A stretch of DNA of 34,154 nt from Bacteroidota bacterium (GTDB taxonomy: Bacteria > Bacteroidota > Ignavibacteria > Palsa-1295), in the NCBI GenBank assembly GCA_030706385.1, contig JAUZOQ010000031.1, positions 1-34,154 on the forward strand, read 5' to 3'. A program made the position numbers and the translations under genes. The notes beneath the pieces were generated by a model, which saw only the letters and a list, made by a program, of their open reading frames with translations, was not told the origin of the DNA and made no database searches. Below are positions 18,513-29,021 of this stretch, one piece after another. Positions within the stretch are counted from its first letter, which is position 1, and each line of letters begins with the position of its first letter.

Positions 18513-18568
18513 GTGCCCAGAGTCGGACTCGAACCGACACACCATTGCTGGCGGCAGATTTTGAGTCT
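18513..18568. repeat. attL: tRNA-Leu 3' fragment, 56-bp direct repeat
   Basis: Identical over 56 bp to 28937-28992. It covers the T-arm, variable region and 3' anticodon stem of tRNA-Leu (minus strand) but then diverges (ACGGCTAAAC), so no tRNA can form here. It marks the left end of the island. Confidence 0.93.
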
Positions 18569-18824
18569 ACGGCTAAACCCTATTCCGATAAGGTTTGTAG
18601 GACTACGTCGGTATGAGTGTCGGTATGGCAACGAAAAGAAACGGTTCGGAATTCCTGAATCGGTGAAACTATTCGTGCATAGAATACACTTCTATTCATC
18701 GAAGAAGTTGCCCCCCTCCATTGATTCTTCGAAGGGCTTTCCTCTTTTTTCTTTCTGTGTTTATTTCTCTGACCATACACCCTCATACGATGTACGCGTC
18801 AGGGTATTGCTATAAGCAAACTAA
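18569..18824. other. Left island end, non-coding
   Basis: 256 bp between attL and the integrase start. Besides the arm-type repeats it holds an inverted repeat (TCGAAGAA near 18698, TTCTTCGA near 18725) and a pyrimidine-rich run before the integrase gene. I see no credible gene. The integrase promoter must be here, but no clear consensus box is visible. Confidence 0.5.
18607..18628 (+). repeat. Left arm-type repeats (GTCGGTATG motif, two copies)
   Basis: GTCGGTATGAGTGTCGGTATGG lies 39 bp inside attL. The same motif occurs nearly three times at 28651-28686 near the other end. Short direct repeats shared by both ends of an integrated element are typical arm-type binding sites for a tyrosine integrase or excisionase. 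Confidence 0.55.
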
Positions 18825-20141
18825 ATGCAGACAGACTCGACAGAGTTTGAGAGGGTAAGAGAATTCGCAGACGCACTTTCACAGAACATCTCGTATAACA
18901 TAGGAGAAAATACTGTGACAAGTGTATCAATCTATAAACTCAAATCCCGTAAGTTTTACATTGTAGAAATCCGCTATCTTGATCCTGATACCGGAGTCAA
19001 AAGGACGTATACCAAATCAACAGGCGAAGAGAAGCTCACACGGGCACGAATAAGAGAACGTGAGATAGTTCAGGCCTTTCTTGCCAAATATAAGAAACTA
19101 AGCGGCAAAGGCATAACGTTGGGCGAACAAATTGATTGCTATGTTAACGAAGTCCGCGACGGAGTAAGAAAAGGTCACAACGGCCACTTCAAGGATACGC
19201 GACAATTCTGCAACGGACTTAAAGATTTGTTAGGCCACAGCACTCTCTTATCCAATGTTGAAACAAGGCACATAAATAAATATCTCAACTCAATCGCAAC
19301 CGTGTCCCGAAAGGCTGCGGCAAGACGAATTCTCCACACCTTTTTCGAACGTGCAGTCATTAATCGTTACATTCAATGGAATCCTGTTAGGGCAGCTTTA
19401 AAATTTCGACTCAAAGCCGCGGACGAAGAATATATTCTTCCACACGAATTTGCAGAACTCTTATTAACACTCCCGAAAGAATCTTATTTTCAGCGAGCAA
19501 GCGGTTTCCTTATCGGACTTGCCTACGAAACGGGAGTTCGTTTAGACGAGGCCGTAAGCATTAGAGAAAGGGATATCATGATTACGGATAAAGTCAAAAC
19601 ACTAATTGTTGCGAATACTGTTGAACATGGGACAAAGAGTGGAAAGAGCAGACCGATTCCACTAAGCGATGAGGCAATCGCATTCATCCAACTTCAAAGA
19701 TCACTAAAAATGCAATCTTCGGACGTTTCCATAAGGGGTTCACAATACTTATTTCCGTCAACTGCGACGCGTTCAGGCATTCTTCGTAAACGTACCGTTT
19801 CAGAGTTTTGGATTGCTCACGCAAAACAAGTATTTCCAGATCGAAAAATAAAATTCAAATCACTTCGACATACCTTTGGGCAGAATCTCCTTATTGACGG
19901 CAGTACAGAGACATACATTTCACAAATGCTCGGCCACTCATCAAGTGCTGTTACTGAAACACACTATGCCAAAACCTCCTTGCTGAATACGCATACTCCG
20001 GCAATGTACGCCGCTCTAAACAGATCCCTTACTCCTCCAGGGACTGCCGCGAAGTTGGCGGCGAGTGAATCGGAATATGGGCTCCCAATAAAAATGCTTG
20101 AACGGCTCGGAATATCAACTTCACTATCTGACCATGTTTGA
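18825..20141 (+). CDS. int: Tyrosine recombinase / integrase of the island
   Basis: A 438-aa site-specific recombinase. An N-terminal arm/SAM-like DNA-binding part (1-195) precedes the catalytic domain. Box I has the first catalytic Arg in YETGVRLDEAV near residue 238, followed by a KSGKSRPIPLS strand carrying the catalytic Lys region. Box II is KSLRHTFGQN, where the first position is Lys instead of His, a common variant. LGHSSSAVTETHYAK carries the His and the nucleophilic Tyr. It would recombine the tRNA-Leu sites bounding the element. There is no Shine-Dalgarno ahead of the ATG. The 3' end overlaps the next gene by 8 nt. Confidence 0.93.
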   Translation: MQTDSTEFERVREFADALSQNISYNIGENTVTSVSIYKLKSRKFYIVEIRYLDPDTGVKRTYTKSTGEEKLTRARIREREIVQAFLAKYKKLSGKGITLGEQIDCYVNEVRDGVRKGHNGHFKDTRQFCNGLKDLLGHSTLLSNVETRHINKYLNSIATVSRKAAARRILHTFFERAVINRYIQWNPVRAALKFRLKAADEEYILPHEFAELLLTLPKESYFQRASGFLIGLAYETGVRLDEAVSIRERDIMITDKVKTLIVANTVEHGTKSGKSRPIPLSDEAIAFIQLQRSLKMQSSDVSIRGSQYLFPSTATRSGILRKRTVSEFWIAHAKQVFPDRKIKFKSLRHTFGQNLLIDGSTETYISQMLGHSSSAVTETHYAKTSLLNTHTPAMYAALNRSLTPPGTAAKLAASESEYGLPIKMLERLGISTSLSDHV

Positions 20142-21111
20142 AAGTGTCGGAATTGATAACGTTGTCCTTTGGATGCCTCTTTCAAAAGAAGAGTTCTTTC
20201 TGCTTACAAAGAATAGTCCGCGAATCGACCCCGAAGGTACGCTAAGAGTTTCGGATTCGCTTCATGTTACGCCGTTTACGACTCCGTATGGTGCAGTCAT
20301 GTATAAAGTAAATCTCAATCCGGCAAAGGCCGTTAACGGCCACAATGTTTCGCTTGCGAATCCTGAAACAATCTCACGAATGATATTGCAACTGCGACAG
20401 CAGTACGATATAGATTTTGCGTCTGCTCCCGTATGCGAATTGCATATTACTTTGACAATAGAGCGAGAAGAGGAATTTGGGACATTACTAAAATTCTTCA
20501 AGCCTCCGAAGGGATATGCTCCATACCCTAAACTACAACCTCACTACTTCAATGGTATTCATATTCTTTCGTTGTATGAGAAATCCGAACAGGCCGGTAT
20601 ACCCGCAGACGTTCAGAGGGAAATTGAAAGTCTGCACCCCACCCTGTTTCGTCTTGAACTGCGGATGAAAGAAGTTTCAAAGTATCTAAGGCAAAATAAA
20701 TTACTCAAGGGACGTCTTACGCTTAGAGACCTAACAGAGGTTGACGGCTACTTTGCAGCATTACGGTATCTTCAAATTGCCCTTCCTCGTTTCCTATCTG
20801 TCCCCGATCCTCCAAAGACCGGAAAAACAAAGCAAACCCCAAAGGCATATTTGAAGCAGCTCGCTTGTACAGAGGACGGGTTTGCCATGCTAAAACGAGA
20901 CTTCAAAGAGCAGCGATTAGCAGGTAACCTTTATGAAGAGTGTTGTGCTTTTCGTTTGGAAGTCCTCAATTACCAACTCGGAAATTCGCTCAGGTCACAA
21001 ATCGCATCCGTTCTCGAATCCGCTCTTTCAAAATGCACTCAAAACGTGAAAGCAGACCCTAACCTTGTTCACGGGTTACAGGAGTTCTTGCAACGGATCC
21101 GGGAAGCGTAA
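20134..21111 (+). CDS. Probable replication initiator, phage/plasmid gene II/X-like
   Basis: 325 aa from the ATG at 20134, which overlaps the integrase stop; a TTG at 20098 is an alternative. The pattern matches what I know of inovirus and Bacteroidota mobile-element initiators (gene II/X, CRI family). An early DNVVLWMPLS strand is followed by VNLNPAKAVNGHNV, a helix ISRMILQLRQQYDI and a strand with VCELHITLTIE. The hallmark YFNGIHILSLYEKSEQ then leads to LFRLELRMKEVSKYL. These correspond to the family's 'N-G-x-x-x-x-x-Y-D/E-K' and 'R-x-E-x-R' segments. Such proteins nick DNA to start rolling-circle replication. I cannot pinpoint a catalytic Tyr or the HUH residues, so this is a hypothesis; otherwise the protein is unknown. 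Confidence 0.45.
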   Translation: MFESVGIDNVVLWMPLSKEEFFLLTKNSPRIDPEGTLRVSDSLHVTPFTTPYGAVMYKVNLNPAKAVNGHNVSLANPETISRMILQLRQQYDIDFASAPVCELHITLTIEREEEFGTLLKFFKPPKGYAPYPKLQPHYFNGIHILSLYEKSEQAGIPADVQREIESLHPTLFRLELRMKEVSKYLRQNKLLKGRLTLRDLTEVDGYFAALRYLQIALPRFLSVPDPPKTGKTKQTPKAYLKQLACTEDGFAMLKRDFKEQRLAGNLYEECCAFRLEVLNYQLGNSLRSQIASVLESALSKCTQNVKADPNLVHGLQEFLQRIREA

Positions 21112-21121
21112 GTAAAGAGGG

Positions 21122-21601
21122 TTAATAATAAAGTCCGTATCTCTTCTTTATATCTGGGGTAATCGTTACGGCCGCCTTTATCTTTTGTTTTACCTCGGCT
21201 ATATGATTTTCTCTCAAAAACCCTTTGTGACTTTTGGGATTGGCCGAAATAATATCCTCAATGTATTTTTTTGAGATAGGGAAAAGGGTTGTACAGTCGG
21301 CAAATGAATCCCATCCTAAGAATGGGTACTCTGTTGTGGTAATCGGAATATGAAGCGATTGCTGCGCGGGCGTAGGATTGCATTTCACATTGATAGTGGA
21401 ATTTATCACTATTACCCCAAGGTCATTATCATCATGAATACACTTTGCCGCGACTGAAAAAAATTTTTCTTTCCCAATCTGAGGGAAATATGCAATGTAT
21501 ATGGATCCTACGACAATGACCGGTTGGGATAAAGCGACTAATGATTCTCTTGAAAGTCGTTCAGCGATTGAGTCCGGCATGAGCGTGGAGAGACTGAGCA
21601 T
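21122..21601 (-). CDS. Probable toxin of a Panacea (PanAT) pair
   Basis: 159 aa from the ATG at 21601; a TTG at 21607 is also possible. It follows the Panacea antitoxin gene with a 41-nt overlap, the usual antitoxin-first order of PanAT systems. After an N-terminal tail (1-28) a compact beta domain begins VIVVGSIYIAYFPQIG and continues VAAKCIHDDNDLGVIVINS. It then has TTTEYPFLGWDSFADCTTLFPISKKYIED and ends with helix-forming charged residues. The layout (short strand, 'INS', 'YPFL-x-W/Y-DS-x-DC') resembles SH3-like PemK/MazF-fold proteins found next to Panacea genes. The toxin activity (RNase or other) is inferred from context, not shown. Confidence 0.5.
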   Translation of the reverse strand: MLSLSTLMPDSIAERLSRESLVALSQPVIVVGSIYIAYFPQIGKEKFFSVAAKCIHDDNDLGVIVINSTINVKCNPTPAQQSLHIPITTTEYPFLGWDSFADCTTLFPISKKYIEDIISANPKSHKGFLRENHIAEVKQKIKAAVTITPDIKKRYGLYY

Positions 21602-22139
21602 TTTCAATATTTAGCGCAATGTAAGCTTTCATTTCGTCGCTTACATTTTCAGCTTCTGCCATATCTTTATAAGAAATGTCTGCGTTTTCGCTTGCCTTGT
21701 CGTAGGCAACATCATGCGATTCGGTGGTTAGCGCATCGAAACTCTTATCTCCATGCTGTGCAACAGACCATTCAAGCATTTCAATGGAAGAGGCTGACAA
21801 ATAATCTAAATTTGGCTCTGACTCTGCCTTGACGTAATAAGGGAGAATAACCTTTAAATTCTTAATCAATGGAAGTAATTCAGCGGGAGGTACAAATAGC
21901 AATTCGTCTCCCCTATTATATTTAAGAATATCATATAATTCCGAGGGCACGGGACCGCGTGTCATCGCAACATAAGTATCGCCAGTTATGGGTTTTCCAT
22001 ACGTAGCAATATGTTTTCTATCTGCGAAATAGAGAATCTTAAAAAGCTTATGAAAATCCACATTACGTTGATTAAGCTTATTAATCACAAATAACGCGCT
22101 ATTTACAGTTGCTTGTATGTCTATTCTGAATTCTGCCAT
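21561..22139 (-). CDS. Panacea-domain antitoxin (DUF4065 / SocA-like)
   Basis: 192 aa with a clear Panacea domain. It has the helical start IDIQATVNSALFVINKLN, the signature LFKILYFADRKHIATYG immediately followed by KPITGDTYVAMTRGPVPSEL, and the C-terminal WSVAQHGDKSFDALTTESH segment. Panacea (PanA) is a promiscuous antitoxin domain that neutralises many different toxin folds, and it also occurs in SocA, an adaptor for proteolysis. It is the first gene of a two-gene unit. A 9-bp inverted repeat surrounds its leader immediately upstream of the ATG (22142-22185), which could serve autoregulation. Confidence 0.85.
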   Translation of the reverse strand: MAEFRIDIQATVNSALFVINKLNQRNVDFHKLFKILYFADRKHIATYGKPITGDTYVAMTRGPVPSELYDILKYNRGDELLFVPPAELLPLIKNLKVILPYYVKAESEPNLDYLSASSIEMLEWSVAQHGDKSFDALTTESHDVAYDKASENADISYKDMAEAENVSDEMKAYIALNIENAQSLHAHAGLNR

Positions 22140-22141
22140 AG

Positions 22142-22209
22142 TAATGTAACCTATTAACTCGCCTAACCTGTGCTTTGTTACATTAATTCCTAATTATCAC
22201 TTTAAGTGA
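22142..22209 (-). promoter_or_regulatory. Candidate operator/leader structure of the PanAT operon
   Basis: TAATGTAAC (22142-22150) pairs with GTTACATTA (22177-22185), a perfect 9-bp inverted repeat with a 26-bp spacer, starting 2 bp upstream of the ATG. A second perfect palindrome, TCACTT-T-AAGTGA, lies at 22197-22209. In RNA the first repeat would trap the ribosome-binding region; in DNA either could be a repressor site. Confidence 0.45.
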
Positions 22210-22626
22210 CTGATTTATATAAAATTGATAGGCTGCTAATTATTGTGATTCCCTTTCCTCTACTCTTTGAACTTTGTCCACTATCCGTTTGACATATACC
22301 TTCATCTGTTCAAACCCTTCAACGCCAAAAGAGTTCTCTCGGAGTCTTCAATCTTCTTATTGTCTAAGTGAGACAATTTGTGCCATTTGAGTCACAATAT
22401 TGCCACCTGAGGTTTGAAATAGATCTCTGCTCCATCCTCACTGCTTTCCCACTGTTATTAGACTGCATTTCAACTGTATTTGGTATCTCCTGCCGATACG
22501 GAAAATTGCCTTTTGGAAGTTGAAAAGTGCCAACCGCTTTTGCCAACTGCAATCTTCATTTGAGGCACTTCCTTGCCCCTGTACGGCATTTTAGAATTGA
22601 GGTTAGGTCACCGGTGGCATTGCCTC

Positions 22627-22727
22627 CACCGCGTCCGATAATTCGAATCCTTCAAATTTACGAACTCCACTTCACCGCGTCGGAAAACTCGAATCTTTCG
22701 ATTTGAAGAACTCCCCTTCACCGAGAC
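22627..22727. repeat. 46-bp imperfect tandem repeat, just over two units
   Basis: Units start at 22627, 22673 and (partial) 22719, with CACCGCGTC, CACCGCGTC and CACCGAGAC at the same phase. Each full unit continues with a variant of CGAATCYTTC and ends in GAACTCC near its end. The second unit can fold TCGAA-TCT-TTCGA. Confidence 0.75.
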
Positions 22728-22761
22728 GGAATATTCTCTCCGATCCTGCCGCAGCCATGCA

Positions 22762-22903
22762 AGGCAGAATTCCTTTTTGTTCGTAAAGTGTACATTTTGT
22801 ACGGTCAAAAACCCGATTCATGCGGAATCGGTAGGCAGAATTCCTTTTTGTCCGAAAAGTGTGCATTTTGTGCCACTAAAACACTGATTTATGCAAAATC
22901 GGC
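22762..22903. repeat. 71-bp tandem repeat with conserved hairpin
   Basis: Copies at 22762-22832 and 22833-22903 match at 56 of 71 positions without gaps; both start AGGCAGAATTCCTTTTTGT. Each ends in a 7-bp hairpin with an ATGC-type loop: CCGATTC-ATGCG-GAATCGG, and CTGATTT-ATGCA-AAATCGG. One pair changes C-G to T-A and another C-G to T-G, so the stem is kept. A shorter GCC-ATGCAA-GGC hairpin precedes the first copy. Confidence 0.8.
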
Positions 22904-23291
22904 ATTATTGAGCAAAAAATGGTACTTTAGGGCAATGTGAGAATTCGCGAAACGCGGTATAATTACCAGTAATTTATTGAAATATAATGCGTTATGGGAA
23001 GAGTTTACATAAGGTATATATTCGGCCACATAGCAAACATACGGCTTTCAGGGCTTATTTTTCAAAACCATGCTCTTTGCGAAAAGTGCAAACATTCTTA
23101 TATACTCGGAGCACAAAAGGACATAATTCAACGAACAAAATGCCTGACCAACCCTTGCCAATCTGTTCCCTAATGTGAGAAGATTGGCTTTTCCCCGAAG
23201 ATCCAATCCCCCACATGGATAGGAGTAAAACAGCCCGATCTTTGGAGGCTCTGCAAAATACGGAAAGTCGTGACTGAGTTCTCCAAGCCTA

Positions 23292-23795
23292 TTATGTCAA
23301 AGCACCAATTTGTTCATCGGATAGATATTGCAGGGGCTTCTGAGGCAAGAGTTTCTTTATATCGAAAATCGGAAGAATTATTCGTTCAAAAGCCGTCCCG
23401 AAATTCTTTGCAAACATAACTCCCCGCGTCGTGCTTAAAGCCGTTATAGTTAGGAATGCTAAAGTAGTTTCAGGCAATAAGACGAAGCCTTTATCAGTGT
23501 AAAACTCAGCATTCTTAATCCCAAAATACATAAGCGTGGATAAAGAAAGTAGTGTATGATCAATATCGTTTTTAGGGCTCATTGTTATACTGCACCCAAC
23601 TCTGACATTCGCTAAATCTTCGGAAATACCGAACGTCATAGTATTTTTGAAATTGAATTGATCCTGAGGTATATCCCGTATTTCAGGCAGAAGTGATTCC
23701 TCCGCGAGAAAATAAGAAGCTATCTGAAACCAATCAATTCTAATTTCAGGAGAGGGTGGTTTTTCAGCATCTAATTTCTTTTCGGATTTATCCAT
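23292..23795 (-). CDS. SecB-like chaperone of a TAC system
   Basis: 167 aa from the ATG at 23795, which overlaps the antitoxin stop by 8 nt; a TTG at 23804 is an alternative. It has a charged N-terminal tail, then a beta-strand core (FNFKNTMTFGISEDLANVRV, GCSITMSPKN) and a C-terminal part LTITALSTTRGVMFAKNFGT followed by ERIILPIFDIKKLL. This 'STTRG ... LPI(I/F)' ending is the form I know from SecB-like proteins of the FCB group, corresponding to the last helices of SecB. As the third gene after a toxin and an XRE antitoxin it fits the chaperone of toxin-antitoxin-chaperone systems, which keeps an unstable antitoxin folded. It is unlikely to be the housekeeping SecB, given the island setting. 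Confidence 0.62.
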   Translation of the reverse strand: MDKSEKKLDAEKPPSPEIRIDWFQIASYFLAEESLLPEIRDIPQDQFNFKNTMTFGISEDLANVRVGCSITMSPKNDIDHTLLSLSTLMYFGIKNAEFYTDKGFVLLPETTLAFLTITALSTTRGVMFAKNFGTAFERIILPIFDIKKLLPQKPLQYLSDEQIGALT

Positions 23796-24285
23796 GTGCT
23801 TCAATAAAAATTTTAGGCTCTACAAAAGGCGCTGCTGCTTGAGCGTTATCCTGAGATGAATATACTTTCTCAAAATCTTTGCGAACGATACCGTTCTTAC
23901 TTATTCGCAGCCTCTTCGCGCATACATTTTCCAATTCATCAAGAAAATCTTTTATATCCTGATCGGAAAGATCACTGTTAATGATAGCTTCGTTTAAGGC
24001 TATCACTATTTCTGGATTACTAATAAATTCATCAATGTAAAAAGAGCGCGACTCAAGTATATCGCCCTTCAATCCTAATTCAAATTTAACTATTGTTTCC
24101 AGAGTCATATTTGAGCCTGGAGGATAACTTAGAATTCGGGAAATCGACTGTTTCTCCATGCCTATTATTTCGGCAAGTTGCGTTTGGCTCATTGAATTGC
24201 GTTTAAGCAATTCCTTAATGCGTCCGATAACATCTACGGTTTTTTGCGCTAACGAGCGATCAATCTGCTTTTGAGTAATAGTCAT
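23788..24285 (-). CDS. XRE-family (Cro/C1 HTH) antitoxin
   Basis: 165 aa. The helix-turn-helix spans about residues 18-72: GRIKELLKRNSMSQTQLAEI then GMEKQSISRILSYPPG and MTLETIVKFE. This is the HigA-like antitoxin form that binds DNA and represses its own operon. The middle region is helical and acidic. The tail (about 140-165) is low-complexity and ends in APFVEPKIFIEAHG, a short hydrophobic stretch that could act as the chaperone-addiction segment described for TAC antitoxins. The start overlaps the toxin stop by 1 nt (TAATG), so translation is coupled. Likely operators are the two 18-bp sites upstream of the operon. Confidence 0.72.
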   Translation of the reverse strand: MTITQKQIDRSLAQKTVDVIGRIKELLKRNSMSQTQLAEIIGMEKQSISRILSYPPGSNMTLETIVKFELGLKGDILESRSFYIDEFISNPEIVIALNEAIINSDLSDQDIKDFLDELENVCAKRLRISKNGIVRKDFEKVYSSQDNAQAAAPFVEPKIFIEAHG

Positions 24286-24833
24286 TACAAATACTCGGTC
24301 AAGTTAAATTCTTCTTTATTTCGGATTAATATCCTCAATGCATCATCTTCGTAATAGCCGCCTGTCGGTGCTAATTTTATATATCCGAGACTTTCTGCCT
24401 TCTTAATGCCGTTCACCGCTTGGGTAATACGCCGAGCCTTATGAGCATAATTGGGGTGTACGTTATAATCACACGTAATGCCGTTGTGGTGATACCCATT
24501 CAAATAAACAAGTGTCTTGTTATTGGGCATAAAGCAAAAAAGTCGAAGACCGATCTCGCTGCCTGCTACGATTCCATCATTATCATCTTTCCCAGGGATT
24601 GCGATTAAAGCCCCCTCTGGTCGGAAAAAAGGATATTCGTTCATATTGCTTTCTCCGATAACCCGCCGATGCAATTGCTTAATAATGGCGCGAATGAATT
24701 CGAATTCAGGGTGATTTCCGTATTCTCTCAGGAACGCTCCAAATTCGGAATATTCCTCGCCCTCACAATAAAGAGCATAGAAAAATCCACGCCCCGTTTG
24801 TTTAATAAGCTTCAGATGGGTAAAAGAGTTCAC
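24285..24833 (-). CDS. Probable RelE/HigB-like toxin, first gene of the TAC operon
   Basis: 182 aa from a GTG start at 24833. The N-terminal strand YALYCEGEEYSEFGAFLREY is followed by a helix rich in basic residues (FIRAIIKQLHRRV). The core GSEIGLRLFCFMPNNKTLVY then LNGYHHNG has the HigB/RelE order: a strand with Arg, an FxF strand and 'LNG(F/Y)'. The following helix NYAHKARRITQAVNGIKKAE matches the 'P-x-x-x-x-x-KA' helix of that family. It is larger than a typical HigB (about 100 aa) because of an insert and a C-terminal tail. RelE/HigB toxins cleave mRNA at the ribosome. Being first, before an XRE antitoxin and a SecB-like gene, it matches the order of the mycobacterial HigBA-Rv1957 system. 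The family call is by eye and not certain. Confidence 0.5.
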   Translation of the reverse strand: MNSFTHLKLIKQTGRGFFYALYCEGEEYSEFGAFLREYGNHPEFEFIRAIIKQLHRRVIGESNMNEYPFFRPEGALIAIPGKDDNDGIVAGSEIGLRLFCFMPNNKTLVYLNGYHHNGITCDYNVHPNYAHKARRITQAVNGIKKAESLGYIKLAPTGGYYEDDALRILIRNKEEFNLTEYL

Positions 24834-24879
24834 TTATAAGTTGACTCGGTGGAACCTGGTAGTCAACTTATAGGTTGAC
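24828..24879 (-). promoter_or_regulatory. Two operators (O1, O2) of the TAC operon
   Basis: O2 (24862-24879) is GTCAAC-TTATAG-GTTGAC, a perfect 6-bp inverted repeat around 6 bp. O1 (24828-24845) is GTTCAC-TTATAA-GTTGAC, the same site with a degenerate left half, and it covers the GTG start codon. The centres are 34 bp apart. This is the arrangement expected for autorepression by the XRE antitoxin. Confidence 0.7.
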
Positions 24880-24903
24880 ATATCTTTTGAAATTAGATAC
24901 TTA

Positions 24904-24911
24904 CAAAGATA
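24904..24911 (-). promoter_or_regulatory. Candidate -7 box of the TAC operon
   Basis: On the minus strand TATCTTTG matches the FCB-type -7 consensus TAnnTTTG exactly. It lies about 70 nt upstream of the GTG start, with O2 just downstream of the expected transcription start. A matching -33 TTTG is not evident. Confidence 0.35.
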
Positions 24912-25110
24912 CGGTTATTTACAACGAAACTTTGTCATTTCTTCCTTTGGACGCTTGATAACCCTCAGACCATTAGCAGAGAGGAATATTGGTTATTTCA
25001 GCTATTAACACGGCTTTTCAAAATTCGAAAACTATGGGGAGGGAATTTCCTGAGGCTTCTCAAAAAGCTTAATGAGGAAACCGAATCTTCCCGATCTTGT
25101 TTAGATTCCG

Positions 25111-25533
25111 ATGAGTATATATTTTAATTTTCAAGAAGACTTCAAGCCCATTGGTAGTGCTATTCTTCCGGGTGGCACGATTATTCCTGATGGGTATGTG
25201 TCCGCGGTATTTGAGGGCTTTACACGGCGCTGCAATGAGATAGGAGAGTCTCTTGAATATGCTGCGCTAAGATGTTTCAAAATGGAAAATGGGAACATTG
25301 TTGGCAAAGGAGTCGCTGCTTACTGGGATATGGAGAATGGTGAGATTCGGATGGAATGGAACTCACTATGGGAAAACGAACGATGGCTTCAACTGAAAAC
25401 TCGTTATGCTGTCTCATATCTAACAGACGCAGAAAAGGAAGAGATTACCCAAGAAATGAAGGAACTCGCCGGAACCTCCGATTTGGATTCGGTCGATCTT
25501 GAATTAAGAATATCCAGACATTATTGGCGTTGA
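25111..25533 (+). CDS. Hypothetical protein, 140 aa
   Basis: I do not recognise a family. It is a small, acidic, soluble protein with many aromatic residues and no signal peptide or membrane segment. It starts MSIYFNFQEDFKPIG, has a strand-rich middle (VAAYWDMENGEIRMEWN) and helical stretches such as YLTDAEKEEITQEMKEL. It is transcribed away from the TAC operon and towards the restriction-modification gene (33-bp convergent gap). There is no ribosome-binding site ahead of the ATG. Its place between two defence modules makes a defence-related or counter-defence role possible, but nothing in the sequence shows it. Confidence 0.6.
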   Translation: MSIYFNFQEDFKPIGSAILPGGTIIPDGYVSAVFEGFTRRCNEIGESLEYAALRCFKMENGNIVGKGVAAYWDMENGEIRMEWNSLWENERWLQLKTRYAVSYLTDAEKEEITQEMKELAGTSDLDSVDLELRISRHYWR

Positions 25534-25566
25534 GATTTGATAGTATTGAAAAGCCGAATACCACAT

Positions 25567-28491
25567 TTATCCGTGCTCAACAATACGTATCTCTTCAGCA
25601 GTCAGTCCGTAGAGCGCATATACTAATTTGTCGATCTGCGAATCTAAATATTCACACTTCCTTTCGATCTGATCACGTTCTGCATCCCTGTTTGTCGCAG
25701 CAAGGTATTGTTTTGAACTAAGCATCTGTTCGACAAGGCTCACAAGTTCATCGTGCCGCAGCTTGTCAGACGAACGAGTAGCATCGAAGTTCGGAATCGG
25801 CAATGCTTTGATATCTTCTGGGTTCAACTTAGGAAAAATATTCTTACCAAAATTCGACAATTTGTATGAACCATACCAACTGAGTAATCTTGAATTAACT
25901 ATACCAAGCAAAAAAAGTGGATTTACCGACCGATCTTTTAGAAGAAATGGCGTTATGCTGTGACCATGATAGAATTTCTCAACAGCAAAAGAAGCCTGAA
26001 TTCTTTTCCCCTGTCCCGGAATTTCTCTGAATAACAAACGCTCACCATCAAAAAACTTTGGGTCTCTCGGTGCTGCCAACCAATTTCCGTAACTTAACCA
26101 TTCTCCGCTCCACGTGATAATATATCTCATTATGTCGCCACCCGCTAACCATTTCCCGTATGAGTCATCAACTTGTGTTTTGGAATGATAAGCTCTAGAT
26201 TTAATTATTGATTCACTCTGTCCCCGGTACTTATCATATGGGGTAATCCCTTGTATGGTATCACCATATTGTTCCAATCGTTTTAGTGGAACAAATTTAT
26301 CTAATATGGCTTCGACATTTTCAGATATTCGATAATCAATCGCTCGCTTTTCGCTCCTCTTAATCTTGTCCAGATCCATTCTTGTAGTACGTCCCCCTTC
26401 ATTTGGAAACTTAACCATCAGAGTATTATTAGTTTCGCTTTTCTTTAGTACAAAAGTGACTGTATTCACTATAGCTTGTGCAAAAACATTTTCTCCCCAG
26501 ATTGTCAGATCATCAAAAGCACAATTTTCAAGAACAATTCTTCTTATGTTATCTGAGTTCGATAGCGTTAGCCATAGTTCGGGGGTGATATAAGAAATGT
26601 ATCCACCCTTCTTAGTTAGCTGAATCGCTCGATCAATGAAATAAAGATAAGTGTCATACTTATACTGATAAGACTTATATCTTCTTTTTATGTAGGATTT
26701 TGTGTTTTCATCTAACAAGCCACCATAGGGAGGATTTCCAACTATCGCATCAAATCCGTCATTTTCCATTACTTGCTTGAATGAGGTGTTGAAATCGAAT
26801 GGCTTTATTCTCTCGAAATCTTCAGGGAGGAGCGGAAAGAGTTGTTCAATGTCGTATTCCACAAGCGAATTGCCGCACTGAATGTTTTTTGAGAGGTCTG
26901 GCAGTATTTTTGTTTTCTCAAATGAAAGCTGCCCGGCAGTAGCGTCGGATTCTGATTCGAGTAATTTCAAAAACAATGAAAGCTGAGCCACTTCCACTGC
27001 TTGGTGGTCAATGTCAACACCAAAGATATTATCAAGTAAAATCTTTTGTTTCTGCTTTAGGGTAAGAGCATAAACCCCCTTGTCAATTTCCAAACATCCG
27101 GCCTTTATTGCCTCGGAAGGATTTCCATTGTAATACTTTTCAATTGAATGAAGAATAATGTCATACACGGAAATCAAAAACGAACCGGAGCCACAGGCAA
27201 TATCTGCGAAACGCATTGAAGAGATTTCCTTCGGCTTCTTCCCTTCAATTAGCTTTCCAACCGTATTTGAAACAATGTAGTCAACAATATATTTTGGGGT
27301 GTAATAAACCCCCCCGGCCTTTCGGACTTCCGGTTTATATTCTATGTCTGCTCGTTTTGCAGTTGCAGTTACAACTTTGCCAAGAAAACGTTCGTATATA
27401 GAACCCAGAATCTCAATGGGGATATAACTAAAAAGGTACTTCGAATTCCTATGTGAAATGTCGTTACATAGCTCCGCAAATACTTTGTCGTCCGGTGCAA
27501 CAAATGAAGGTTTGTCTATGGCGTGAGGCTTGAACACAATACCATTATATTTTACGTCAAGCTCTTTACTCCAATTAATGAAGCTCTTCCACGCACCACC
27601 TTTCTTAGCTGCAATCTGATCAACAATGTAATCCGATTCAATATTTTTATCTTCCAAGAACCGAACAAAAACAAGTCGGTCAATAACCTTTTGAGTTGCT
27701 TCGGTGAGGTCTTCGGCTGTTAGTGATTCGTCCGCTTTCTTGAAAGCCTTGGCAAGCGTAAGACGGTATTCTTCCAACTTTGTGAGGAATGCTTCGTCAA
27801 CGGGTTTGGATTCTTCAACTGTGAGTTTTGCTTTTCCTGCTCCGCGTTGCTTCGGGAGTCCCCTTGCAAATTCTTTCAGCTTGTCACCTTCGATTGCCTC
27901 ACGAGAAAACAACCAATAGATATACCCGAAGTTCTCCCTGTCGAGATAGTCTTTGTAGACAAATGTTTTGATCTGTGCCGAAGGATAACTCTTTTGAAGG
28001 TTTGGTTCGTAACGGCAATCAATTATGTGGAATTCTTCAAAATCAGTCAGTACTCCAACAGGTGTGCTTGCTCCGCGTCCGTACCTTACAAGCTGAAAAT
28101 AGAACTCAGGATCACTCAATTTGCGGGAAGGCTTTTTAGCTTCGCAGAAGAAAACGGGATTCCGGTAGTCCGGTTTCAGATAGAAAGCGTAGTCCGCTTT
28201 TCGAGATGTTGCCGATGAATCTGGATTCCTTTCAACCTTTACCTCCTGTTCTCGGGGATTCGTTTGGTATTTGTGCCGAACATCCCACCCAAGAGCAATC
28301 CAGAATTTGTTCAGAAAATCCTCTCTTACTTCTGCCTCCTGATACTTAGGGGAAAGGTAGTGCTCTTCATTTGCAGCGAACTCATTAACTAACACGGACA
28401 CTTTCTCAAACGCTGTCTCAAATAGGGTCATAGCTTTGTTTGGGGCTACCACTGCGGTTATGTCTTTCAAGAAACCTGAATCCTTGGACAA
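25567..28491 (-). CDS. Type IIG-like restriction-modification enzyme (Eco57I family)
   Basis: A 974-aa single-chain RM enzyme. An N-terminal PD-(D/E)xK nuclease of HsdR_N type has KADYAFYL then VFFCEAKKPSRKL near residue 115. A helical linker follows, then an N6-adenine methyltransferase with motif I FADIACGSGSFLISVYD near 432 and motif IV VGNPPYGG near 585. The C-terminal target-recognition region (about 700-970) is TaqI-like, with FLLGIVNSRLLSWYGSYK and FPKLNPEDIKALPIPN. It would methylate one adenine per site strand and cut unmodified DNA. It looks intact. The start is a TTG at 28491; the next Met is residue 21. No separate methyltransferase or specificity gene is present, as expected for type IIG. 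Confidence 0.88.
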   Translation of the reverse strand: MSKDSGFLKDITAVVAPNKAMTLFETAFEKVSVLVNEFAANEEHYLSPKYQEAEVREDFLNKFWIALGWDVRHKYQTNPREQEVKVERNPDSSATSRKADYAFYLKPDYRNPVFFCEAKKPSRKLSDPEFYFQLVRYGRGASTPVGVLTDFEEFHIIDCRYEPNLQKSYPSAQIKTFVYKDYLDRENFGYIYWLFSREAIEGDKLKEFARGLPKQRGAGKAKLTVEESKPVDEAFLTKLEEYRLTLAKAFKKADESLTAEDLTEATQKVIDRLVFVRFLEDKNIESDYIVDQIAAKKGGAWKSFINWSKELDVKYNGIVFKPHAIDKPSFVAPDDKVFAELCNDISHRNSKYLFSYIPIEILGSIYERFLGKVVTATAKRADIEYKPEVRKAGGVYYTPKYIVDYIVSNTVGKLIEGKKPKEISSMRFADIACGSGSFLISVYDIILHSIEKYYNGNPSEAIKAGCLEIDKGVYALTLKQKQKILLDNIFGVDIDHQAVEVAQLSLFLKLLESESDATAGQLSFEKTKILPDLSKNIQCGNSLVEYDIEQLFPLLPEDFERIKPFDFNTSFKQVMENDGFDAIVGNPPYGGLLDENTKSYIKRRYKSYQYKYDTYLYFIDRAIQLTKKGGYISYITPELWLTLSNSDNIRRIVLENCAFDDLTIWGENVFAQAIVNTVTFVLKKSETNNTLMVKFPNEGGRTTRMDLDKIKRSEKRAIDYRISENVEAILDKFVPLKRLEQYGDTIQGITPYDKYRGQSESIIKSRAYHSKTQVDDSYGKWLAGGDIMRYIITWSGEWLSYGNWLAAPRDPKFFDGERLLFREIPGQGKRIQASFAVEKFYHGHSITPFLLKDRSVNPLFLLGIVNSRLLSWYGSYKLSNFGKNIFPKLNPEDIKALPIPNFDATRSSDKLRHDELVSLVEQMLSSKQYLAATNRDAERDQIERKCEYLDSQIDKLVYALYGLTAEEIRIVEHG

Positions 28492-28523
28492 ATTTACGAC
28501 ATAAACCTTTTGACTTCAAGAAT

Positions 28524-28554
28524 ACGAAGGAGTACCTTCGTCCGCGCTTCGCGC
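28524..28554. repeat. Two adjacent hairpins upstream of the RM gene
   Basis: ACGAAGG-AGTA-CCTTCGT (28524-28541) is a perfect 7-bp hairpin, and GCGC-TTC-GCGC (28544-28554) follows at once. They lie 33-63 bp upstream of the TTG start, in the likely leader or promoter of the RM gene, and could affect its expression. There is no U-run, so a terminator is unlikely. Confidence 0.45.
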
Positions 28555-28650
28555 TCCTCCACTCGCTTATATTTGGGGGAAAGAATTTCATTCTCTTTAG
28601 AACCCCTTATTATATATGCAAGACAAATCCTCAAGAACTACCCGGAGTAG

Positions 28651-28686
28651 TGTCGGTATGAGTGTCGGTATGAGTGTCGGTATGGA
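28651..28686 (+). repeat. Right arm-type repeats: 12-bp tandem motif, nearly three copies
   Basis: TGTCGGTATGAG at 28651-28662 and 28663-28674, then TGTCGGTATGGA. Two copies of the same motif occur at the left end (18607-18628). This is probably an integrase or excisionase arm-site cluster. Confidence 0.6.
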
Positions 28687-28936
28687 TTTAGGAAAGTCTG
28701 TGCAATCACTGGGAAGAAATTCTTTCTCGGATCGGTCGGCCGCTTACAAAGGTGTTTGTATCTTTGTGGCTGAAAGCAGAGGAAGTTTTGCTGAAAAAGA
28801 CACGGAAACGTTAACTATAACTAACAATATTTGAGCATCTTAGGAGTAGCTTTCCACACGTTCCGTACAGCGAACTTTCCACTCTTAGGCGGCTCGTTTG
28901 TTCTTTGAAAGTTCGCTGCGAATTCTCTTTAGCTCA

Positions 28937-28992
28937 GTGCCCAGAGTCGGACTCGAACCGACACACCATTGCTGGCGGCAGATTTTGAGTCT
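28937..28992. repeat. attR: 56-bp direct repeat within intact tRNA-Leu
   Basis: Identical to 18513-18568. Here the sequence continues into the 5' half of the tRNA, so this end restores a complete tRNA-Leu. Confidence 0.93.
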
Positions 28993-29021
28993 GCTGCGTC
29001 TACCAATTTCGCCATCCGGGC
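28938..29021 (-). tRNA. tRNA-Leu (CAA)
   Basis: An 84-nt tRNA. The acceptor GCCCGGA pairs with TCTGGGC, discriminator A. The D arm is GGCGAAATTGGTAGACGC. The anticodon stem GCAGA/TCTGC has loop CTCAAAA, giving anticodon CAA (reads UUG). It has a long class II variable arm as expected for Leu, and the T arm is GTCGG-TTCGAGT-CCGAC. CCA is not encoded. The 3' part is the island's attachment core. Confidence 0.96.

Follow-up and report, generated by a model that had tools for sequence, protein, structure and literature searches.

The window, i.e., the whole stretch of 34,154 nucleotides that was analysed, contains a predicted toxin-antitoxin-chaperone (TAC) operon, whose three open reading frames at positions 23292-24833 are intact, overlapping and located on the minus strand (Table 1). 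The preliminary description had proposed three overlapping genes for proteins of 182, 165 and 167 amino acids, the second one being an XRE antitoxin, in the order of the HigBA-SecB TAC systems. All of this was borne out by the reading frames, by the matches of the antitoxin to Pfam HTH_3 and to PDC-M64C of PADLOC (4.2e-9), and by the same order in a same-family genome as well as across the protein family. The toxin and antitoxin genes share 1 nt (TAATG), the antitoxin and SecB-like genes 8 nt; the latter overlap would amount to 17 nt if translation began at an in-frame TTG at 23804, a possible alternative start which would extend the SecB-like protein to 170 amino acids. The XRE antitoxin gene is directly preceded by the toxin gene, which is the locus order of the HigBA type. 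Paired 19-nt palindromes at the toxin start would fit an autoregulated operon with an XRE antitoxin. Matches to sigma-70 promoters around the operon were fewer than in shuffled sequences and were not used.

Table 1. Features of the predicted TAC operon and of the surrounding island (positions in the window).
Feature	Position	Strand	Remarks
Toxin gene	24285..24833	-	GTG start, 182 aa; extended protein, probably RelE/Gp49-like (BECR)
XRE/HigA-like antitoxin gene	23788..24285	-	165 aa; Pfam HTH_3 3.8e-6, residues 23-69
SecB-like chaperone gene	23292..23795	-	167 aa from ATG
Candidate chaperone-addiction (ChAD-like) tail	23791..24054	-	Antitoxin residues 78-165, 88 aa, 8 aromatics
Motif FVEPKIFI in antitoxin tail	23803..23826	-	WVGIEDFI in same-family antitoxin
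Operator-like palindrome, copy 1, AGTTCACTTATAAGTTGAC	24827..24845		Overlaps toxin start codon
Operator-like palindrome, copy 2, AGTCAACTTATAGGTTGAC	24861..24879		19 nt, ahead of toxin start
Left attachment repeat	18513..18568		56 bp, identical to part of tRNA-Leu
Right attachment repeat	28937..28992		Within 3' part of tRNA-Leu(CAA), 28937-29021 (-)
Tyrosine integrase of island	18825..20141	+	Pfam Phage_integrase 1e-18; PHROG integrase 4.9e-41

Among the three operon proteins, only the HTH of the antitoxin was recognised by Pfam and NCBIfam. In PADLOC, all three matched profiles of the phage defence candidate PDC-M64: the toxin M64B/M64A (PDC-M64B, 1.9e-8), the antitoxin M64C/M64B and the chaperone M64C (PDLC04763, 1.1e-10). 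With E values of 1e-8 to 1e-10 these are remote matches, and PDC-M64 is a catalogue entry without a mechanism; none of the papers searched mentioned it or described its function. The toxin/antitoxin/chaperone family is not new as a catalogue entry, being contained in PADLOC-DB as PDC-M64 with its function unexplained.

The PADLOC chaperone model detected a SecB-like gene in 77 of the 395 genomes that were sampled from the phylum; the toxin family was present in 79 of the 395. Many of the loci found with the chaperone model possess XRE antitoxin and toxin genes directly upstream; across the phylum, 39 related toxins precede an antitoxin and a SecB-like gene, and iterative profiles group them into one superfamily. 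Alignments were constructed for toxins (A2), chaperones (A3) and antitoxins (A4); the broad alignments A2, A3 and A5 proved too heterogeneous for a pattern scan. The genome of a bacterium from the same family (L002/L127) carries all three genes, arranged alike, with overlaps of 4 nt and a toxin about 24-35% identical to that of the window. Since genes and order recur there, the arrangement is not due to chance. Members of the same toxin, antitoxin and chaperone families were also present, in order, on a plasmid of Bacteroides thetaiotaomicron BFG-119 (NZ_CP103284.1, 59688-61030), where the toxin is about 32% identical to a Chlorobiaceae query; the annotation there is hypothetical protein for both toxin and chaperone, and HTH regulator for the antitoxin. 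Single-sequence searches of genome contigs with query P0003, and of plasmids with P0003 and P0001, gave no match, nor did the relatives (set A6) in viral contigs, or toxin and chaperone in PHROGs. In eight further loci (L010, L020, L021, L031, L039, L054, L070, L072), SecB-like genes stood beside apparently unrelated toxins, shorter HigB-like ones and others; therefore several TAC types coexist in the phylum.

The operon had been placed in an island beforehand, and the boundaries could be located: an exact 56-bp repeat at tRNA-Leu(CAA) encloses 10.4 kb (18513-28992), with a G+C content of 41% as compared to 45-47% outside. The cargo consists of the integrase, a protein of 337 amino acids, a Panacea-domain antitoxin with its partner, the TAC operon, a protein of 140 amino acids and a type IIG enzyme. 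In a genome of the same genus (G001, L169) the site is empty, and CrcB directly adjoins the tRNA and greA. From the repeats, the integrase and this empty site it follows that the operon is mobile cargo alongside defence genes. The type IIG restriction-methylation enzyme (974 amino acids, 25567-28491, minus strand, PADLOC 3e-159) adjoins the TAC operon. A Panacea/SocA-type antitoxin gene (Pfam 2.2e-18; 21122-22139, minus strand) overlaps the gene of a 161-aa protein, and the two are probably a second toxin-antitoxin pair on the island. The 337-aa and 140-aa proteins (20098-21111 and 25111-25533, both plus strand) had no Pfam, PADLOC or PHROGs match at the cut-offs used. The noncoding region 22624-22902 contains two imperfect tandem duplications (a 46-nt unit and a 71-nt unit, each twice) and had no match in Rfam.

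A location of this kind raises the question of whether a working TAC would serve mainly island maintenance (addiction) or stress response instead of phage defence, with loss of the island freeing the toxin. This appears possible, if somewhat doubtful. The island carries an integrase and is missing from the genome of the same genus, and toxin-antitoxin modules stabilise mobile DNA. The neighbours, however, a type IIG enzyme and a Panacea pair, are cargo of the defence type, PADLOC lists the family as a candidate for phage defence, and the TACs characterised in E. coli defend against phage (PMC9519451, PMC11618068). The operon is probably an anti-phage system, in the form of an uncharacterised and strongly diverged TAC variant.

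The toxin sequence matched none of the HigB, Gp49 and RelE families of Pfam at E<1, no family of the Pfam RelE superfamily matched any of 39 relatives, and a search of solved structures by sequence gave chance matches only, so that the structure was predicted instead. AlphaFold returned a model of intermediate confidence (pLDDT 76); its first nine Foldseek matches in the PDB were HigB2, Streptococcus pneumoniae HigBA and BrnT toxins, with weak scores (best E 0.024, TM-score about 0.4-0.6 depending on target length). Independently, the profile of 62 toxins was compared by hhalign with that of 25 Gp49 proteins (PF05973) from the same phylum, which gave E 3.8e-6, a probability of 87% and 90 collinear columns; unrelated profiles and 30 column-shuffled versions reached at most 0.5% probability. 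According to these profiles the toxin would be nearer to HigB of the Gp49/RelE type than to a new fold. It can be regarded as a remote RelE/Gp49-like protein, with a RelE-superfamily ribonuclease as the best guess, although support for this is less strong than for the SecB fold of the third protein. The earlier assignment as RelE/HigB-like is upheld to that extent. As regards putative catalytic basic residues, Arg97 is invariant in the family alignment, as is Gly113, and the Lys found at position 116 in at least 90% of the relatives is replaced by His here (His116).

An oversized toxin had also been taken as a sign of a divergent or new TAC type. The divergence was confirmed, whereas the size is not peculiar to this locus and represents the norm of its family, since relatives of about 150-200 amino acids share the architecture of the 182-aa toxin; an enlargement through fusion was rejected for the same reason. 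A different enzyme with a similar beta-sheet core could perhaps account for the weak structural scores, the approximately 60 additional residues and the change from Lys to His at a conserved position, but such a toxin is unlikely in view of the collinear Gp49 match, which shuffled controls did not approach, the leading structure matches, all of them RelE-superfamily toxins, and the HigBA gene order.

The third protein, which had been called SecB-like, is represented by an AlphaFold model with a pLDDT of 88.6. The top 23 Foldseek matches of this model were all SecB or SecB-like (probability 0.98-1.00, best E 2e-4) and included the SecB proteins of E. coli and Haemophilus influenzae as well as streptococcal SecB-like proteins. 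Structures 1ozb, 1fx3, 1qyn and 5mtw were matched with a probability of 1.00; the last is Mycobacterium tuberculosis Rv1957 with the addiction (ChAD) peptide of HigA1. Because the leading matches are SecB structures, the designation SecB-like is retained, and the model clearly points to a SecB fold, though Pfam missed it: SecB (PF02556) did not match the window protein and matched one of 56 relatives (E 0.053). A search of solved structures by sequence gave a weak SecB match (E 0.16).

A separate hydrophobic tail of the antitoxin, APFVEPKIFIEAHG, had been suggested as a possible chaperone-addiction segment. It is the true C-terminus of the protein, and tails of this kind co-vary with the chaperone gene. 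The tails of the window and of the same-family antitoxin have in common a core [F/W]-V-x4-F-I, a motif which was defined after both had been seen. For a broader comparison, 39 operons with a SecB-like gene were set against 23 related pairs of toxin and antitoxin in which no chaperone gene was detected, a few of the latter being called solely from the lack of a match within roughly 1-1.5 kb. Behind the HTH core, the tails had a median length of 56 amino acids with 6 aromatic residues in the former group, and of 34 amino acids with 1 aromatic residue in the latter (p 3e-6 for length and 2e-10 for aromatics, values which ignore relatedness). On the toxin tree, well-supported branches show at least nine switches of the chaperone label. 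The tree yields 9 independent pairs, among which the aromatic tail followed SecB in 8.6 on average and went in the opposite direction in none (sign test p 0.004); the cut-off of three aromatics was set after seeing the data, and the effect is large. These sequence comparisons support the notion that chaperone gene and aromatic tail have been coupled repeatedly in evolution, as chaperone addiction predicts.

That the operon is an ordinary two-gene toxin-antitoxin system, beside which the SecB-like protein acts as a stand-in export chaperone, is very improbable. In its favour, the genome gave no second SecB-like match, and overexpressed TAC chaperones can substitute for E. coli SecB (PMC5105189). 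Against it, the SecB-like and antitoxin genes overlap, the linkage to this toxin and antitoxin extends across the phylum, the mobile island on which the SecB-like gene is located is missing from the genome of the same genus, and aromatic antitoxin tails come and go with the gene.

The extreme C-termini were also compared. A small terminal residue was present in 29 of 39 antitoxins with SecB and in 3 of 23 without; the endings AA or AS occurred in 17 of the 39 antitoxins with SecB, and in none of the 39 toxins or 39 chaperones. Such ends resemble the C-terminal Val-Ala degron for ClpX of M. tuberculosis HigA1 (PMC8165232). Taken alone, the small-end trait did not reach significance once phylogeny was corrected for (median p 0.125). 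The antitoxins of the window and of the same-family relative end in EAHG and QNNS, neither being a typical ClpX degron. A degron at the C-terminus of the window antitoxin was not adopted, since EAHG does not fit, although most relatives with SecB end small.

Taken together, we would assign a probability of about 80% to a type II TAC operon which is cargo of a defence island integrated at tRNA-Leu and which acts in the following manner. Judging by its predicted fold, the toxin is most likely an mRNA-cleaving enzyme that probably works at the ribosome. The XRE antitoxin would bind the toxin and repress the operon via the palindrome pair at the toxin start. Its long, aromatic-rich tail should make it prone to aggregation or proteolysis unless bound by the SecB-like protein, a proposal supported by the finding that tail and chaperone gene have repeatedly been coupled in evolution. 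We infer that the chaperone could be titrated by some factor, most likely a structural protein of a phage as in HigBAC and CmdTAC. The tail would then be exposed, the antitoxin degraded (by ClpXP in known TACs) and the toxin freed, which could halt translation and phage growth within the infected cell.

On a wider scale, we suggest tentatively, and at slightly less than even odds, that in the Bacteroidota in the sense of GTDB (including Chlorobia) a SecB-like chaperone and a fitting aromatic tail have repeatedly been acquired or lost as a unit by one RelE-like toxin-antitoxin family, in which a CmdC-type chaperone sometimes takes the place of the SecB-like one. Chaperone and tail would constitute a plug-in module for phage sensing, and the window locus would be among the most diverged forms. 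Experimental work on TACs is sparse and comes mainly from Mycobacterium and E. coli. Two of the three proteins of the family are invisible to Pfam, yet the family occurs in about one fifth of the sampled genomes of the phylum. Chaperone and tail, switching together many times, provide a natural experiment on the way in which a toxin-antitoxin system of two genes becomes addicted to a chaperone and possibly capable of sensing phage. Closely related pairs with and without the chaperone (for example L014/L111, L005/L109 and L050/L125) make the idea of chaperone addiction directly testable.

Among known systems, HigBA1-SecB(TA) of M. tuberculosis (Rv1955-1957) has the order toxin-antitoxin-SecB, the SecB fold and an XRE antitoxin with a C-terminal extension in common with the window. 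The extension serves addiction in M. tuberculosis, where the chaperone binds it and guards the antitoxin against aggregation and degradation (PMC5105189, PMC8165232), and is a candidate for this role here. In contrast, the window toxin is about 60 amino acids longer and outside the HigB families of Pfam, the chaperone is outside Pfam SecB, and tail sequence and C-terminal residues differ. E. coli HigBAC, a gp49/HigB TAC, follows the same three-gene logic, and the window toxin profile is closest to Gp49, although the toxin is longer and highly diverged; a phage trigger is predicted for the window locus, whereas that of HigBAC is the lambda tail protein, according to earlier work as cited in PMC11980606. 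CmdTAC, the renamed PD-T4-9 (PMC9519451), is likewise a TAC with a SecB-like chaperone, which senses a phage capsid protein, the antitoxin being lost to ClpP (PMC11618068). Its toxin CmdT is an mRNA ADP-ribosyltransferase, unlike the predicted RelE/Gp49-like toxin of the window, and the PD-T4-9 models of PADLOC matched neither toxin, antitoxin nor chaperone of the window. In one locus (L121), the third protein beside a toxin relative appeared by eye to be similar to the CmdC-like chaperone. In another (L104, 1306-1746), the third gene following a member of the toxin family encodes a CmdC-like chaperone (PD-T4-9_C, 2.4e-8), which suggests that chaperones are exchangeable between TAC types.
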